Assembly: GCA_001600495.1 (NCBI GenBank)
Contig: BCKE01000119.1
Coordinates: 1 to 25,450, forward strand
Source of the DNA: Pilasporangium apinafurcum
Taxonomy: Eukaryota > Oomycota > Peronosporomycetes > Pythiales > Pythiaceae
Direction of reading: 5' to 3'
DNA: 25,450 nucleotides
Program-made: the position numbers and the translations under genes
Shown here: positions 553 to 25,215 of the stretch, piece after piece
Numbering within the stretch: position 1 is the stretch's first letter
How the letters are laid out: every line of letters begins with the position of its first letter
Notes under the pieces: model-generated
The model's database searches: none
What the model saw: only the letters and a program-made list of their open reading frames with translations
Told to the model about the DNA's origin: nothing

Positions 553-1925
553 TCAGATCAGTGACATACCAACCATTATTTCCTCCAGATTTGCCATCCG
601 ACCTTCCATTGCTTTCAACTTAGCTCTCAGCAAGTCATTTTCATTCTTTCTTTTCTTCATTTTTGTCGTCAGGATAGGAAGAGTATCCTCCTATGATATG
701 TTGAAAGCACCATTAGCAAGAGAGACAAACCCATATACATCAATTTCTTCGTTAAGACCATGGCATGGAGCAATATTGATTAATTCTANGAACTCAGTCT
801 TGGTAACATTTTGTGCAATTAAACTACAGCGATTAGCTTGCAGTGGATCATTTGCATAATTGAGTCAGACTGACCGACTACTTTTGATAAACCACCAACA
901 ACCATCGTGTGATAGTGGTTCAATTCATTACTACAATCGTCGGTCTGATGTTACACACACAGTTTCATTAACAATGATTGAACTAGCAGTAAGAATGGAA
1001 TATGACGTTGTGGTCGGTACCATTGTACNNGTACTATCTTCTGAATGAAGACAACCAGTTTTCGAACTTGTTGTAAACGATGCAGAACATATTTCAAGTG
1101 AAAATGTGCTGTTAGTAGTATTTCCAATTTGAAGAGAACATCCAGATGGATTAGTCTTCATAATCCCAGTGTTACTCACTGTGATCGAAGCAGTTCCTNT
1201 TGATCCAATTGCTACATTCGAAGCAATATGAAGATTGGATGAAGAATCCACACCGACATCACAATAAGCAATTTCACTGTCATCAAATGCATTGTTAGTC
1301 AATCGTATTCAGTATGTAGCCCCAGTGCCATTTCCTGATAATGTCATTGTTGGAGAAGATGTTTGAATACCTATAAATCCAGATGATTTGATCATTGACT
1401 TTTTTGTAGATGTAAATACCCCAACATCATAGTTGCCAATGAATAAACCGCCAGCCGCATTCGCTGTTGTAGGTGATCTCGCTTGTATATAGCATGCACT
1501 TGAACCTGATGCTAATCGCAATGAATNTGTTAAAGCGACAATAATATCAGACGAATTATTCAAGGTTGAAGAGAGAGAGTTTTGAATGAGGTAATATATG
1601 TCTGCGCAGGAGTACGAATAGTACCAACAATATCAGTGTTAGAAATCGTGGTAAACCCAGATAATGATTCGAGTCTAAAATCAGTGAGCAACTCATATTT
1701 GGTGATTTCAACAGCATGTACATAGCACGATATCTCTCCATCAATCAAGTATTCTTCAAGTAATGAGGCAGTCAACAACAAGTGACTACGGCGCAAATCA
1801 TTGTAAGAAGCATCATAACAGCGATTGGAAGGACAATTGGCATGGTCAGTTGATACATATTTAATTATGATAGGTGGCAATTTTAATGGTAATATAATCC
1901 TATTGGATATTAGATGACAAGGCAC
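553..1925 (-). pseudogene. Decayed tail-fibre-like protein with C-terminal peptidase S74 domain
   Basis: Read on the minus strand. The upstream part (1925 to about 1572) ends in a segment, GTIRTPAQTYITSFKTLS (1572-1625), like the repeats of tail-fibre and tail-like proteins of large DNA viruses. Next comes FIGIQTSSP (about 1351-1377), the GIGT-SP type repeat of the same proteins. The end shows the peptidase S74 (endosialidase chaperone) signature: SDRRL at 934-948, IEPL just after, IAQNV at 805-819, and a charged coiled coil at about 565-684. In known families this domain trimerises the fibre and then cleaves itself off. The gene is broken by a frameshift in a GA repeat near 1570-1579 and by in-frame stops at 1309, 931, 928, 925, 865 and 691; from 1563 downward everything stays in one frame. 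Scattered Ns also fall inside it. No start codon is evident. Viral origin is inferred; the domain assignment is fairly firm. Confidence 0.78.
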
Positions 1926-2083
1926 AACTGAAATTAACCAGCATTTTGCGTTTCTGCATTCATGTGGCTGATAGGTGCGAAACTACTATTTGTGAGAGTT
2001 TCAATTTGTTTCGGTTTTGTTCATAGTGGCAATCTTCTGCGCGACTCGACAGCCCACAGAGGATCACAATCCCTCTTTTGTGT

Positions 2084-2100: not shown

Positions 2101-2136
2101 TCTTTCCCATACTAGTACTAAACACCACCATCAAGC

Positions 2137-2868
2137 ATGTTGGACTGGATTTCTATGTTCAATCCGTTTGAGTTGTGTTTTAGCTGTAAAGGTTCTCATC
2201 TGCGGTTCTGCTCGACATACCAGCACTTGATTATCCCCAAGAACAGCTCCGATGGACACAACGTGAACAAATTGTGCTGGGTGCGCAACAAAGGGATTTG
2301 GAACGGCGACCACTTCGAGCAGAACGAAGCTATGATTGTTACCAGGGATGGCTTGAGATTACGTCTGAATGACAAGGCCATGGAGCGTATTCGCAAGAAG
2401 AGGCAGCAAGGAAAAGCATTCAAGTTGGTATTTAAAGATAAGTGCAAGTGCATCGACTTTACGTGCAAATGCGTCATGTGTCCGTGCAAATGCTGTCCAT
2501 GGTGGTGTTGCAAAGAAGCGAAAACAATCGATCTCTTGATACCAAACGAAGCATTTATTGAAGGAACCGACGTGAAAGCTTGTGCAGGTCCCAATGGATC
2601 GGCCTGTGTGCTCAATACGTTCTGTTCATGTTGTGTCGAATATGCCGTTTATTGTTGTTTTAGTTGTTGTGAGAATAAACTTCGGATCCATCATTCCGAG
2701 TATGAACTCGTGGATTTTGAGGGCGATTTTGTTGCCCCGTACTGGACCGACATGGAACGAGGTATCGCCAAAGCTCCCGCGAGCCCTACCAGCAGAGCAG
2801 GAAAAAAAGTTGTCGGCAGAGATGCGAGTCCCACTGTGAAAACGAATGATACGACCATTAATAACTAA
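2137..2868 (+). CDS. Cysteine-rich protein of unknown function, 243 aa
   Basis: Intact frame from an ATG to TAA with an initiator-like motif just upstream. I do not recognise the family. The protein has 23 cysteines, mostly in two dense clusters: residues 103-125 (CxC, CC and WWCC patterns) and 149-178 (ending in CCFSCC). Between them is an ordinary, probably folded segment. Residues 75-100 are basic (RIRKKRQQ), and the C-terminal 40 residues are Ser/Thr/Lys-rich and look disordered. There is no N-terminal signal peptide. The CC clusters beside aromatic and hydrophobic residues could be palmitoylated and hold the protein on a membrane, or bind metal; both are inference. It is convergent with the membrane protein at 3216-4847. 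Confidence 0.75.
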   Translation: MLDWISMFNPFELCFSCKGSHLRFCSTYQHLIIPKNSSDGHNVNKLCWVRNKGIWNGDHFEQNEAMIVTRDGLRLRLNDKAMERIRKKRQQGKAFKLVFKDKCKCIDFTCKCVMCPCKCCPWWCCKEAKTIDLLIPNEAFIEGTDVKACAGPNGSACVLNTFCSCCVEYAVYCCFSCCENKLRIHHSEYELVDFEGDFVAPYWTDMERGIAKAPASPTSRAGKKVVGRDASPTVKTNDTTINN

Positions 2869-2888
2869 ACAAGAAGCTTACGACCAGT

Positions 2889-3149
2889 ATGTCTGCACGT
2901 AATAATATCAATATCATTTTCACTTTCCTGCTCATTCCCCTTGTAACCTATTGTGGAATATGCAAAATAACGCGTACATACCGTTCCCTATGCGTTTCTT
3001 CAGCCACTCGTTGGTATATAGCGCCTTATGCGCGTATCTTGCAGAAAAATTATTACACTTACTATGATACTGATGCGCAACGCATGGCTGTAGTCTTATC
3101 TCTTTGGTTCGTGGAGACTACTATGATTACTCAAATATTGAGTATATAA
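2889..3149 (+). CDS. Doubtful small ORF with N-terminal hydrophobic segment, 86 aa
   Basis: ATG-to-TAA frame starting 20 nt after the stop of the preceding Cys-rich gene. Residues 7-24 are hydrophobic and could act as a signal or anchor; the rest is Tyr-rich and matches nothing I know. No initiator-like motif lies ahead of it. It may simply be the 3' UTR of the upstream gene. Confidence 0.2.
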   Translation: MSARNNINIIFTFLLIPLVTYCGICKITRTYRSLCVSSATRWYIAPYARILQKNYYTYYDTDAQRMAVVLSLWFVETTMITQILSI

Positions 3150-3215
3150 ATGCTCCAACTAATATTGATATTAATTGTCCACGTCATTAAATGTCTAATC
3201 AACTAGCTGTATAGC

Positions 3216-4847
3216 TCAACCGTTTTGCTTTGGCTTGACCGCCATTGGCTTTTCTCCCGATAAGTCTTTGAGCTCTGTGAGACGCAGTGGGCGTTCTCCT
3301 GGGTATATGATCGCTCCACCGGTCGATTGCTTGTTTTTTGGCGTTGACCCGATCCAAATGATCCAGGCGTAATACGATATCACATACAGGATATAAAACG
3401 CGGGGACTTTGACAAGATCGGTCAGCTGATCTTTCCACCATCCATTGAACATGATGGTCGTGATCATCGCAGAGCGTTTCGAGGCACCCACGCTGTCGCC
3501 ATAAGTGCCCGTGTCTCGCGTAACGCTCGAGGAATACCACCAGCTAAAGACGAACAGACCCGCCGTGATGATGTAGGTGATAAAATACCGGTAGTAACTG
3601 CTACGCGACCCGACACTCGCGGTGCTGATACAGACATCAAAAGCGGCTTCGAGCACTTGCGTTAGCGCAGTAGAGATCCACCCGGCAAGATCGCTGGTTA
3701 CGACTTCATCAGATTGCCAGCACTCAGTCGACGTCGTGGACGAGTAGGTGTTGCTCGACTGCGTCGCCTGCGCATTGTTACAGCTATACATTGAACAGCT
3801 ACTAAGAGTGAGGCATTCACACGCAGCGGTGCAACCCAAAGACACACCATTGCAGAGCGTATCGCACTCACAGGTCTTGCAATCCGCGACTGTGCGCGTG
3901 GACACGCAATTTTCGCTATCGTACTCAATCGTACCAAAGAGAAACGCAAGCGAGGTCAAGAGCAGAAGCGCCCTGATGATCGACCCGACGCGCAACCACC
4001 GCGCCGGCTGTGATGCTGCTGTCGATGATGAACGATGACAACTCACGATGTTGAACAGGTCGTGCTCGTCGACGAAATATGACCAGAACTGGCGACGCTG
4101 CCGATTGTCGTCCAGTACTGGTGCCACACAATGCTGAAATGCAAGATTGCCCATAGCCGTCATAAACTTACCCTTCCAGATGAATTTTATAGTGGAAGTA
4201 ACATTCTTCGCGATTGAATCATCTGTTGCCTCGCTATTTCTGCGTTGGCACCAGAATTCATACCACTTGGCAGCAAATGTAACGACGGCAGTAATCCCAA
4301 CGTAGACACTAACGACGACCCAATAGTCTTTGGGGGTCAATGTTGGTGCGTAAATGGTATTGGGTACATCTGGATTTGTTCCGGTGCCGGAACACTGAAA
4401 TGGCTCCAAACACGATAACTCCAGTTGGCCTTGGGTTTCAACACAGTGATAGCAAGTGCAGCCAATGTCAGCGAACGCCTCTTGGGCTGCGTCACACGAG
4501 CTCAGTGCGAGATTGTAGTCGGCGACACAGGAGCCAGACGTTGCCAAAGTAGGCTGCGTGGTCGATGGGTTGCCGGTGGTTGGTGCTGGACTGGTTGGTG
4601 CTGGAGTGGTTGGTGCTGGAGTGTCTGGTGTCGTGGCCCCATTACAATTCAGACTCAAGCATGTGAAGGCGAGATACCCATCCGTATCGGAACAGGAATA
4701 AGATGAACACCGGGTCGCCAGCTCGGAGCAACTGGAGATAGCGATACCGTAATTGTCGAAGCACGAACCAGATGTCACAGCCCCCACGAAGGTATGTCGA
4801 TCAATACACGACAGTAACAAGATAATGGACCAACTCAGCGTCCTCAT
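3216..4847 (-). CDS. Signal-peptide membrane protein with duplicated Cys-rich ectodomain, 543 aa
   Basis: The start chosen is the ATG at 4847, which opens directly into a signal peptide (residues 1 to about 24); the longer frame upstream has no ATG. Two related Cys-rich repeats follow, at about 27-69 and 105-153. Each begins GSC and has spaced cysteines and a shared Leu/Cys-rich end. They are joined by a Thr-Pro-Ala linker (70-100) that is probably O-glycosylated. Predicted membrane segments lie near 174-195, 287-306, 420-438 and 482-500. A third Cys-rich stretch (314-377) lies between the second and third. The C-terminus is soluble and Lys/Pro-rich. This arrangement suggests a cell-surface receptor or adhesion protein, but I do not recognise the family. 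It ends in TGA and is convergent with the gene at 2137. A TCATTTT motif about 70-85 nt upstream is a weak initiator candidate. Confidence 0.8.
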   Translation of the reverse strand: MRTLSWSIILLLSCIDRHTFVGAVTSGSCFDNYGIAISSCSELATRCSSYSCSDTDGYLAFTCLSLNCNGATTPDTPAPTTPAPTSPAPTTGNPSTTQPTLATSGSCVADYNLALSSCDAAQEAFADIGCTCYHCVETQGQLELSCLEPFQCSGTGTNPDVPNTIYAPTLTPKDYWVVVSVYVGITAVVTFAAKWYEFWCQRRNSEATDDSIAKNVTSTIKFIWKGKFMTAMGNLAFQHCVAPVLDDNRQRRQFWSYFVDEHDLFNIVSCHRSSSTAASQPARWLRVGSIIRALLLLTSLAFLFGTIEYDSENCVSTRTVADCKTCECDTLCNGVSLGCTAACECLTLSSCSMYSCNNAQATQSSNTYSSTTSTECWQSDEVVTSDLAGWISTALTQVLEAAFDVCISTASVGSRSSYYRYFITYIITAGLFVFSWWYSSSVTRDTGTYGDSVGASKRSAMITTIMFNGWWKDQLTDLVKVPAFYILYVISYYAWIIWIGSTPKNKQSTGGAIIYPGERPLRLTELKDLSGEKPMAVKPKQNG

Positions 4848-4919
4848 GACGGCTCCTGTTGGTTGACAGTAGGGGACTGGACGGTAATTTGTGAATACGG
4901 ATTGTCTCACTCGCTATTC

Positions 4920-5196
4920 ACTTAAAATGACCATGGACGCGTAAGATATGCAGTATGAACCAGTTTTGCAAAATCTATTTCGAGTCATTTGAATGCGACT
5001 GAGAAAAGATTGCAATGATGCAATTGGGCGAGAAGAGTATGGAATTCTACTGTCGCAAAACTATATTAAGATCTCTTTTGCGTGTATAAAAAACCGCAGC
5101 CAAACGACCTTTTGACTAAGTGCATGTATCTAGACGACCAACCTCCTATCTCTTGTCATTTAGTATCTTTGAAGATCTCAACCCTCTTATCTTGTC
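4920..5196. other. Intergenic; possible eroded 5' part of the helicase remnant
   Basis: No intact frame. A short open stretch begins with an ATG near 4993 and runs about 40 codons without recognisable similarity. The N-terminal (primase) part expected before an SF3 helicase is not visible. Confidence 0.3.
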
Positions 5197-6038
5197 TAGG
5201 ATACGCAGAGTTGCGGTAAAAACATTTAGTTCAACGTGTTCTAGCGCTGTATGGTGAACTCATCTAGTATCATTGAATTCGCAAATATGGACAAGTTACT
5301 GACTCGGTTCAATAGCTTGAGACTTGGAAAGATGTTCATTGTGCTTGATAAAGTAGTCAACAGCGACATCAGCAAGATGAACAATCGAATAAAAAAATTG
5401 ATCATCAATGATTGTGCGCACATTGAACATAAAAAGATAATGAGGTCAATAACTTTACCAACTACGTGATCATCACCAACAACTATTTTATCTCTATCAT
5501 CGAATTACATGATCGTCAGTACTTATGCCTTGAACCATCCGCTTCCAAGGTTGGAGACGATGAATACTTTGATGAATTGGCTCATTCGCTGCTTAATGTT
5601 GAAGTCGACAAATACATCTTTTATCGGCTCTTTCGATGTGATATCGCTCACTTTAGACCAGCTCGTATGCCTAAAACATAGCACAAGAAGGTACTCAAGA
5701 TGAGCTAATGCAACGATGTCGTGGAATATCTGCTTTACTATCGTGATCACCTTGTCGACAACGATATCTATGATGACTTTGTGGTCTCAGTGCCACAGTG
5801 GTACGATCACTATAAGATATGGTGCACTGACGTTACTGAAGAGGTATGTGTTAGGAATCTTGACACATTCAATGGCTTACTCAATTCTGAGGGTATCGGC
5901 AGTAAGAAAAGACGATCACCAAGAATTGTACTCGTCAAATTGTTCGCACTCGCACTAGAGGCCGATCTATCTTTGAAACGTACTTACAACAATGTCTACT
6001 CTAGCGATAGTAAGATCGCACACTTTAGTGATGACTAA
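5197..6038 (+). pseudogene. Decayed superfamily 3 (D5-like / DUF5906) helicase
   Basis: Several SF3 landmarks appear in order. A degenerate Walker A (QSCGKN, 5206-5223) is followed by an NxDKLLxRFNS stretch and a Walker B-like FIVLDK (5335-5352). Motif C, IITNN, lies at about 5469-5483, followed by the HDRQ segment that matches the DRR motif of this family. Then come a GDDEYFDEL block and a C-terminal winged-helix-like part with YDHYKIWC (about 5805-5828). This is the helicase architecture of nucleocytoplasmic large DNA viruses, virophages and related mobile elements. It is broken by TAG at 5197, 5227 and 5242, a frameshift at the A run near 5431-5435, TAG at 5679 and TAA at 5706. The frame ends at 6036-6038. 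No N-terminal primase domain is visible. Family assignment is by motif reading only. Confidence 0.72.
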
Positions 6039-6441: not shown

Positions 6442-7078
6442 TCAAACCACGCACAAATTACAAAACCAGATCAAGACGCATATGTGAAGGTATTTTCTCA
6501 TTTTCTTTACAATGAATGCATTGAGAAAGTGTACGTCGGGATCATATCCACACATTATGCTCTCATAACAAGCAAATAACCAATTAAGCATTTTTGAGGA
6601 GTGCACACTAATGTCATTGCTGACATAAATGCCAATATCATATGTTGATTGAATAGCCATTGCCAATATTTTGCTGCTGGTTACTTGACGCTGTTTGTTG
6701 TAGTGCCGTACAAAGAAGCGCTAGATTTGTCGACACAATACTTTGTCTCGATATACGAGGACGTTTATTTCCACTTCCCACATACGCGATGAATCACTAT
6801 GTGCATGCATGAATTTCATAGGTGTAAGCAAGTCCATTGTACACGTTTTAAATAGTACAGGATGCGTTCGCATGAGCATCACGTGGAGAGAATCATGCGA
6901 CGCCGCTCTTGACAAGATACAGCTTCAGTTGATCTGCATCAGTTTCCTTCAGAGTGTTCGTCTTCTCCTTCTTGATCGCCTTTTTCAGATGATCCACCGA
7001 TTTGTTTGCTTCAATGTCGATGAAGAGAGGGGCTCCTTGCACGCCTATTAAAGCGCAAAATAGCGCGATTATCTTCAC
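6442..7078 (-). pseudogene. Broken CRN (Crinkler) effector, N-terminal LFLAK-type domain
   Basis: From about 7078 the minus strand encodes the CRN leader: IIALFCALIGVQG, a DIEANKSVDHLKKAI block, then LKLYLVK (6908-6928), a variant of the LxLFLAK/LYLAK motif. CRN proteins are secreted by oomycetes and act in host cells, usually the nucleus. The codon at the expected start (7076-7078) is GTG, not ATG. The frame stops at a TGA at 6893-6895. The adjacent frame continues with a segment ending INVLVYRD (about 6748-6768), which resembles the HVLVxxP boundary of CRNs. It then has TAG at 6721 and runs on to 6442 without a recognisable effector domain. So the gene has at least a lost start, one frameshift and one nonsense codon. 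The CRN leader is fairly sure; assignment of 6442-6720 is weak. Confidence 0.68.
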
Positions 7079-7251
7079 TCGAGACGAAAAGTTGGGGAAT
7101 AAGAGCACTGCAAAGACGATTTTCCACCTTTTTAATTCAGCCAATTAGATACTGTTGGTAGTATATTATCGTAAATGGCAGATTGAGAAAGACCATAGAA
7201 GTGACAAACATTCTGTATGACAACAGAAAGGCCGCATTTGAAAATGTTATG

Positions 7252-13854: not shown

Positions 13855-15418
13855 CTAGTGAAGAACCTCGAGGGCATATAGGAGTAGAGAAGAAGCAGTT
13901 GAGCTTTTTTTAAACATTTCAATCTCATTTTCAAATTTATCATGTGGAGCATATCCACACACGAAGAAGAGTTCTCCAACATGGAAAGCATCGTAAAAGC
14001 GGACAACATGCTCATACTTCAGTGAATGCCATCTTTCGATTTCTTTGAGGAACTGATGTTCGGTGGTATCATCACATTCATTCAGAAGGCGCTTGACCAC
14101 GACAGGAGTGTCTCACCATTCTCCACGATGTACAGATCCAAAGCCACCTCTGCTGAAAGATTTTTCCTCTCACACTACATCGTAAGGAGGAATAAATCAT
14201 TTTTTCACTTTGATATTTGAACTATGGACACCATCAAGACTGGCGATGTCTCCCTCTAGCGTATTCATCACCTCTAAGCACCTTTTCGAGTTTCTAAGTC
14301 GTTGTTTGGTCATTTCATAGCATAATAGAGTGATTGTTTCGTTTCGTGATCTTGTATCCTTGAACTCCCTAGTGATTACTTATTTATCTTGACAAAACAA
14401 AGCAAATATTCCTTTCTGCACCAGTTGATCCTTCTGCGAGAGCCTTTTGTTGAAAGATTACACAACAACACGTTGAAGACTTTCTATCGGTCCTGCAATG
14501 GCATCAATGTTTTGATGGAACTGTTCTATGTGATCTGTGAGTTTTCGACGGCCTGCAAGTCGAAAGATCAGTTTGTTTTGGCTCAAGTACATAATCACCA
14601 GCTTGTGGCGCCGAGGCAGCAATCACGATAACTCGTCAAGAGCATCTTTTTCCGTCACAATAGTTAAAGAGTCTGCCTGTGAATAGATCTCGATCAATNT
14701 CGTGTAAATGNGAGTGCACATGACTCCCGATTCGTACATCTCCTTGCACAGACAAAATACTTGCNCCATTACGTATGAGNCAGAGAAAGGTAGAGCAGAG
14801 ACAAANACTTTATCTAATGCATATGGTAGTGCTGTTAATCGTGGTATTTGTTATTGGTTTGGCTTAGTTTCGTCCGANTCAAAATGACTTTGGGTGGAGA
14901 TATCAATAAAGTTAATTGATCAGATCTACATCTATGATGCTTGCTGGTCTGGTAACGGTGCCATGACTATGTTCATTAGTACAAACTCTTTCTCGTCACC
15001 AACAGGAGTTCGAAGTACCAACGAATTCGTCGCTACTTTTTCTGGGTCTTTTTATCCCCGTGATAACATCCAATGCCATTTCGCCTTCATTATAACTGCT
15101 ATCGGATGCCTCATCGTGGATTTTAAGGCTTTCTATCACGTCAAGATGATCTTGTCTTGCTGCTACATGTAATGGAGTCTGACCGTCTTCACTCTTCTCA
15201 TTCACTGTTGNTCCTTTATCGACCAAATACTTGATCATCTCTAGATATAATGGAGTCAAGGCATATCTGCCCTTCGGGTTCACTGCTACTCCATTCGCCT
15301 CCACAAGGTACCGGATCCTCTCTAGATCTCCGATTCGAGCAAGCTCATANATCGACGAAGCCTATGCACTCATGGCATTCCATACGCGACTCGGTAACCC
15401 GAATTTTCGAATGACCAT
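13855..15418 (-). pseudogene. Decayed ankyrin-repeat protein kinase (TKL type)
   Basis: From an ATG at 15418 the minus strand reads into ankyrin repeats (IYELARIGDLERIRYLVEA, then TPLHVAARQDHLDVI at 15134-15178). A frameshift lies between 14996 and about 14880. A helical middle region runs about 14820-14230. The kinase domain then begins: FIPPYDV, glycine loop GGFGSVHRG (about 14122-14148), VVVKRLL with the ATP-binding Lys at 14092-14094, the helix C region, and the hinge segment FFVCGYAPH. The combination of ankyrin repeats and this WFIPPY-type kinase is common in oomycetes. In-frame stops lie at 15362, 14996, 14851, 14623, 14458, 14380, 14197, 14170, 14113 and 13855. The match ends at the LEVLH segment, so the catalytic loop, DFG and the C-lobe are missing. 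Several Ns fall inside. Confidence 0.8.
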
Positions 15419-15994
15419 ATCACAACATCACATCAAAAACTCGCCGCAATATAGTCATTACTTTTCAAACTTCATCTTTCTTTGATTATCTATATGAAAT
15501 AGAATACAATAATTCAATCTGCTTAAAACATGGTCTAATCCCTCATCACCATCAGCTATTTCTCTGTGTGAAAGAGCCATTTCCTTTATTCTCTTCCATC
15601 AAGACGAGATATTCAACAACCATCTNCACTTTCTTACACAACGATNACAAGGAGACAGAAACCAATGAAGATAATGCTCCTAATAATCTAGCTGGCTACG
15701 ATCAGAAACAAACGACTTAACAAAATAAGGCTATATATGCGATGTTGGGNCACTTCGTTGCATTTAGAGCTTCGTTCATTCATGAACAAACAAGANNATG
15801 CTCTGAAGTGGTAGCGTCATATTCAGTCTAGTAACAAATATGATGATGAAAGAAAGCTCGTGATGCAGCTAGAGTAAGTAAGTATAGTCTCATTCGTTGT
15901 CTTCGATTAGACATGCAGTCGTAGAAGAGATGAATATCCAATATTATGCGGCATCANCGACNCATNNAATCAGNATATGAAGCAACCAAAATAA
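15419..15994. other. Intergenic region with ambiguous bases, no supported gene
   Basis: Lies between the ankyrin-kinase start and the 3' end of the CBEL-like gene. It contains Ns at about 15626, 15646, 15750, 15796-15797 and 15957-15974. I see no coding signal or repeat. Confidence 0.4.
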
Positions 15995-16390
15995 TTAGTT
16001 GAGTTTGCCAGACACGGCACCAATCAACTTGCTTNNNGGACCGGCTNCACTCTTGAGATANCACACANGCTGTCCAGGGTTGCTGTTAATGCACGTGTAT
16101 GCTTTGCATCCGCTCAACTTGGCACATGCCTCACAGCAGAGCGATGGGAGATTTACATAGACTGTTTGAAGATCGTTGCCATAGTAATCGGCATCAGTTT
16201 CTTGTGACGTGCATTGTGCTGGTCTCGCGATGCATTAGTAGTAAGTAGGGTTCCATGGCTGGCAGTATTGGTCAGAGGGACAGCACGTGATGCCAGCATC
16301 AGAGCCACAGCTGCCGTATGCAGGCGTATTGCATGTCGCTACAGCAGCAACGGATGTGAATAGGGCGAGGAGGATCGTGGATTGGAACAT
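15995..16390 (-). pseudogene. CBEL-like secreted protein (CBM1 plus PAN/Apple) with one nonsense codon
   Basis: The frame runs from the ATG at 16390 to TAA at 15995-15997 (132 codons) with a single internal stop. Residues 1-18 form a signal peptide. Residues 20-54 are a fungal-type cellulose-binding module, CBM1 (YGSCGS, GITCCPSDQYCQPWNP). Codon 52 is TAA (16235-16237), just where CBM1s have a Gln before the last Cys, so CAA to TAA is the likely change. A PAN/Apple domain follows (QETDADYYGND, then LPSLCCEACAKLSGCKAYTC). In oomycetes this pairing is that of CBEL, a wall protein that binds cellulose and elicits plant defence. Ns at 16035-16068 leave some codons unread. It could be a recent pseudogene, an allele or a sequencing error. 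Confidence 0.8.
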
Positions 16391-24990: not shown

Positions 24991-25215
24991 AAAAGAAGAA
25001 CACCATATTCAGATAGCCCTTGAAAAATTAGGATGTTGAAGAGAAAAAACGGAGGTGGTCACCAGTCTCGTTCGTGAGATAATTGCGAAAAACCCACTCA
25101 AAAACACAAAAGGGTTAGATTAGTAGAAGGGGTTTTCCAATAAAAAAGGGTACTGTTATTTACACGGGGTAAAAATTGTTATTTACACAGGGTAACAAAA
25201 TAATAATACAATATT
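24991..25215. other. Intergenic; short direct repeats
   Basis: A direct repeat of TGTTATTTACAC followed by GGGTAA occurs twice at about 25154-25197, separated by a few bases. No gene is seen. Confidence 0.4.

Follow-up and report, generated by a model that had tools for sequence, protein, structure and literature searches.

One end of an oomycete contig most probably carries a pseudogene, about 470 codons long, that once encoded a viral attachment fibre, was integrated into the oomycete genome with a DNA virus and was later broken. The window analysed here is the whole of that contig (C119; 25,450 bases) in an assembly of 36.47 Mb and 136 contigs. The remnant occupies 1982-553 on the minus strand, nearly the length of a gene, and ends in an S74 (endosialidase-chaperone) domain. 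Fibres with this domain are trimers whose C-terminal S74 part is an intrinsic chaperone for their folding; after the trimer has formed, this part releases itself by cleavage at an SDR motif.

Layout and decay of the remnant

The first-pass annotation, made from the letters alone, had proposed an order of fibre repeats, SDRRL, IAQNV and coiled coil, and this order was borne out. In the remnant, the repeats are followed by SDRRL (948-934), the IAQ motif (822-805), the coiled coil and a terminal stop (Table 1). The S-D site of SDRRL, at which self-cleavage would take place, is present, and the spacing from SDRRL to the IAQ motif is 37 codons, as in three of four metagenomic relatives (P0010, P0020 and P0021; 34 codons in P0022).

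The annotation had also read a single frame with six stops and one frameshift in a GA run, and we find the same: the open frame changes near 1570-1579, and the second frame, 1632-553 (-), holds six internal stops, at 1311, 933, 930, 927, 867 and 693. Because all five after the first fall from SDRRL onward and break the frame of the S74 domain, this frame is unable to make that domain. The remnant is expected to be functionless, with no fibre made from it, and is probably a dead, broken copy of a virus attachment-fibre gene.

The true start of the remnant is uncertain, but it probably lies about 60 bases upstream of the limit given in the first-pass annotation. The N-terminal part, at 1982-1563, gave nothing convincing in a phmmer comparison with a set of 138 proteins, where its top hit was a capsid protein at E 0.037.

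Table 1. Features of the fibre remnant and its surroundings, in window coordinates
Feature	Position	Strand	Basis or remark
Dispersed repeat: 3' flank of the remnant and last coil codons	1..619		83-91% identical stretches on C14, C42, C51 and C128
Terminal stop codon	553..555	-	Frame reading
S74 C-terminal coiled coil	556..690	-	Profile positions 97-130, E 0.058 (weak; backed by its place)
S74 core, with LIAQNV (822-805) and GFVS	694..864	-	Four-sequence profile, positions 38-90, E 5.9e-9
S74 stretch between SDRRL and IAQ, with four in-frame stops	865..933	-	Frame reading
Fibre repeat piece with SDRRL, the S74 start motif, at its end (948-934)	934..1308	-	Weak phmmer match: C111 fibre, E 0.0035
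Fibre repeat piece, second frame	1312..1632	-	Weak phmmer matches: P0010, E 0.014; C111 fibre, E 0.033
GA run, site of the open-frame change	about 1570..1579	-	Frame comparison
N-terminal fibre part, own open frame	1563..1982	-	Frame listing; SNTDIVGTIRTPAQTYITS inside it resembles stretches of P0010 and P0020 by eye
Neighbouring open frame, 243 aa, taken as a host gene	2137..2868	+	Without Pfam family
ABC-transporter frame, 1,360 aa	8034..12116		By eye

Relationship to S74 fibres

The S74 relationship was established by profile comparison. A search with the S74 fibre of another contig, C89, gave 19 proteins, 17 of which carry PF13884; one of them, P0010, was chosen because by eye it resembled the window. 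Searching with the S74 part of P0010 then returned four proteins, P0010 itself, P0020, P0021 and P0022, all metagenomic S74 fibres with PF13884, and these make up a small profile set. Against all 801 six-frame pieces of the window of at least 20 aa, the four-sequence profile ranked 694-864 (-), the IAQ piece, first (E 5.9e-9, 31.6 bits) and the adjoining 556-690 (-), the coil piece, second (E 0.058, 9.0 bits), while the third match was an unrelated piece (E 0.37). When 1-2136 was shuffled 500 times with its dinucleotides preserved, the top score was 9.8 bits; none of the 500 shuffles reached 31.6 bits, and two reached 9.0 bits, so that the coil piece counts by its place and not by its score.

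Two further profiles were built, of 12 and eight sequences; the larger took 12 of 22 proteins, with P0001, P0003, P0005, P0007, P0011 and P0015-P0019 left out. The 12-sequence profile also placed the IAQ piece first (E 6.3e-6), with the coil piece fourth (E 2.1). The eight-sequence profile, built from the other fibre type, again put the IAQ piece first (E 0.0073), and the coil piece was not among the six matches listed. A search of the whole genome with P0021 gave two matches from three candidates: the C111 fibre and window 1218-580 (-), the latter read through five stops (E 9.8e-8). Most of the repeat piece at 934-1308 falls within this window match.

The check suggested in the first-pass annotation, a Pfam Peptidase_S74 search, found no match to the remnant: its pieces, searched singly up to E 10, gave no Pfam family, and PF13884 was found at four places in the whole genome, none of them in the window. 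The pieces are short and diverged, and decayed remnants of this sort can escape a search that uses the Pfam model alone. The match to PF13884-bearing proteins is significant and follows the domain order, the coil piece matching at the profile positions after those of the IAQ piece. As the Pfam S74 model was not passed, we call the remnant a decayed relative of these proteins and not a member of PF13884. Searches of the single pieces against PHROGs returned no S74 family, only families without assigned function (phrog_1638, E 0.0026, and phrog_21042, E 0.16, for 556-690; phrog_21133, E 0.31, for 934-1308), and P0021 had no match in the PDB at E 0.01.

Host proteins can carry S74 domains too, and two proteins of this genome, on C52 and C127, look host-like by eye, which would fit a decayed MYRF-like host gene instead of a viral one. 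We consider this origin very unlikely. The GFVS-type fibre profile fits the IAQ piece best, and among the 138 proteins compared its best relatives were P0021 (E 7e-6) and P0010 (E 1.4e-4), with P0022 and P0020 also among them. The proteins of C52 and C127 were not among the nine best listed for any of the five remnant pieces; a best match to a MYRF-like host protein, named in the first-pass annotation as evidence against a viral source, thus did not occur in this set. As the set came from fibre and capsid searches (134 proteins, 112 of them through the capsid search, plus four from the genome itself), the result is a ranking and not a tree. The C127 locus (L002, C127:2918-6103, on a contig of 14,968 bases) lies in an open frame of 2,887 aa, with S74 amid glycine/serine-rich repeats on both sides; since this S74 domain is not terminal, self-cleavage would cut the protein in two.

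Contig context, copies and the reality of the stops

The rest of the contig looks host-like. Pfam pieces elsewhere on it belong to thioesterase, Crinkler and ankyrin families, and two open frames are listed in Table 1. The Crinkler effector N-terminal domain lies at 6893-7144 (-) (Pfam E 3.9e-15); together with the capsid relatives described below, it points to an oomycete host. A cluster of N letters at 14699-16068 surrounds an ankyrin piece, perhaps reflecting collapsed repeat copies. The G+C content is 37-40% over 1-2100, 43-53% over 2101-4900 and 38% over 4901-5600; because it is low again in the last of these stretches, base composition gives no sign of a foreign origin for the remnant. 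Taken with the profile and shuffle results and the stops, this context supports the earlier proposal of a decayed S74 fibre gene within a eukaryotic contig.

Part of the remnant is present elsewhere in the genome. In a DNA search, window 800-577 recurred on C42 (91% identical) and C91 (89%). The TAG at 693-691 is common to both copies, and that on C91 carries one additional stop of its own. Since this stop recurs in both of these diverged copies, the decay is, for that stop, not merely an assembly error; the other five internal stops are seen in this assembly alone. Differences between the copies at the three codon positions number 6/7/6 of 223, 8/11/5 of 223 and 10/8/7 of 224, a spread that would be expected of sequences without selection. 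For the 3' copies, however, nonsynonymous/synonymous ratios of 0.46, 0.81 and 0.68 were obtained, all below 1, and with 19-25 changes neutrality is not proven.

These copies bear on whether the gene might be intact in the organism, its stops having arisen where near-identical copies collapsed in the assembly. Such artefacts have been reported for endogenous viruses in PMC10120064, which cautions that stops in endogenous virus genes can arise in this way, and the remnant stretch contains five N letters. We nevertheless regard an intact gene as unlikely: beside the shared stop, a DNA search with 300-2136, in which very common words were skipped, found no second match for 800-2136, and the long ABC-transporter frame on the same contig stays open.

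The flank of the remnant is itself repetitive. A query of 1,131 bases over the repeat at 1-619 matched at least 24 places, itself and two in its own contig included, although several of these match other parts of the query only. Ankyrin-like frames adjoin several of the repeat copies by eye. Near the other end of the contig, 58 bases at 24991-25048 (-) match the left-end repeat at 88%. Because 1-619 is a dispersed repeat, we infer that duplication within the genome, more likely than a virus, spread the broken 3' end.

Ankyrin-like frames also lie near the C42 copy, and a frame ending upstream of that copy is one that we take to be Crinkler-like. The C42 and C91 segments both continue into a fragment that, read by eye, is presumably a zinc-finger endonuclease; Pfam finds no family in it. 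Two such fragments, L014:5418-5687 (-) and L015:4903-5196 (+), lie downstream of an S74 coil remnant. A genome search with one endonuclease-like fragment gave 12 places, including L014 and L015; at the ten others the match was confined to roughly residues 59-95. The endonuclease-like protein has relatives at 25 loci in IMG/VR, and the contigs that carry two of these loci measure 302 and 428 kb. When the six-frame pieces of at least 30 aa from these 25 loci were searched for S74 fibres accompanying the endonuclease-like gene, none came up (best S74 E 0.28).

Possible donor and known viral insertions in oomycetes

The same genome contains two Polinton-like virus loci, on C89 and C111, each with an open capsid frame and S74 fibre frames. 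The capsid frames, 647 and 610 aa as cut, are 45-50% identical to each other. A capsid search that scored the 7,990 candidates sharing most words gave 112 relatives at E 1e-5. Proteins of Phytophthora, Aphanomyces and Lagenidium are among them; by name, three of the relatives are major capsid proteins and one a capsid protein. Each locus has an S74 frame above the Pfam cut-off, but both fibres are split over two overlapping frames, so that they too may be broken or contain errors of sequence. On C111 there is, in addition, an ATPase frame of the Pox_A32 type that passes its cut-off; in another frame a chromo domain passes its cut-off and an integrase core falls just short, and this frame could also belong to a retrotransposon. 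The capsid, A32-type ATPase and S74 fibre frames of C111 make up L022 and L023, and the end of that contig has a 95-base perfect inverted match to L022:4528-4622, such as could come from terminal inverted repeats or from an artefact at the contig end. The second locus, on C89 (L020 and L021), has capsid and S74 fibre frames, and the two fibre relatives from named organisms are from Phytophthora.

None of 17 frames from these loci, fibres included, matched the window by tblastn at E 0.01, so that by this search no capsid or packaging ATPase gene accompanies the remnant. In IMG/VR, no relative could be confirmed for the IAQ piece, the C89 fibre, the C111 capsid, P0010 or P0021. The repeats of P0022 matched five loci there, taken as phages by their other frames; one of these loci (L066) has an S74 domain of the other type (E 2.4e-10). 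With neither a frame match nor a confirmed IMG/VR relative, the donor virus is one that we infer.

A bacteriophage or bacterial fibre gene as the source would agree with the matches of P0021 to four phage records (three from Synechococcus phages and one from phage Phi NF-1; best E 5e-8). These matches cover 40-50% of P0021, at its S74 end, with 28-32% identity, and the remaining contig is host-like, so that we hold such a source to be extremely unlikely.

For the viral pseudogene that we favour, the following course may be proposed. The fibre gene would have entered the oomycete genome through the integration of a DNA virus, most probably of the Polinton-like type or one allied to it, and would there have accumulated stops and the frame change. 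The 3' part, already broken, would then have been copied to other repeat-rich places, and the remnant would now yield no fibre. A more specific version, in which a GFVS-type fibre lineage distinct from those of C89 and C111 left debris that Crinkler/ankyrin clusters absorbed and spread together with the endonuclease-like fragment, is tentative and on the whole doubtful.

Integrations of Polinton-like viruses in oomycetes have already been published (PMC10120064), and according to PMC12220804 such viruses commonly carry S74 fibre genes in most groups of eukaryotes. Like those fibres, which are integrated in protist genomes, the remnant has a fibre body with an S74 chaperone at its C-terminal end, and its length lies between those of its relatives P0010 (431) and P0022 (520), with P0020 and P0021 shorter (363 and 273 aa). 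In contrast to them, it is broken and stands alone, and by eye it is of the GFVS type, whereas the C89 fibre is of the NENLK type. The endogenous Gossevirus (GKS1) Polinton-like viruses of oomycetes (PMC10120064) may be compared with the C89 and C111 loci, whose capsid frames have oomycete relatives; none of the 17 frames taken from these loci matches the window. For Phytophthora parasitica, PMC8204020 describes the insertion of a giant virus on a contig that also bears Crinkler and ankyrin genes; there, as here, viral debris shares a contig with such genes and with repeats, but giant-virus genes are involved there and a single fibre gene here.

Viral leftovers are thus known from oomycetes, and the remnant is a further dead example, real but mostly ordinary. 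With it, an oomycete-like genome gains one more fossil, that of a viral attachment gene; the general picture is left unchanged, but the remnant suggests that viral debris travels within clusters of effector and ankyrin repeats.
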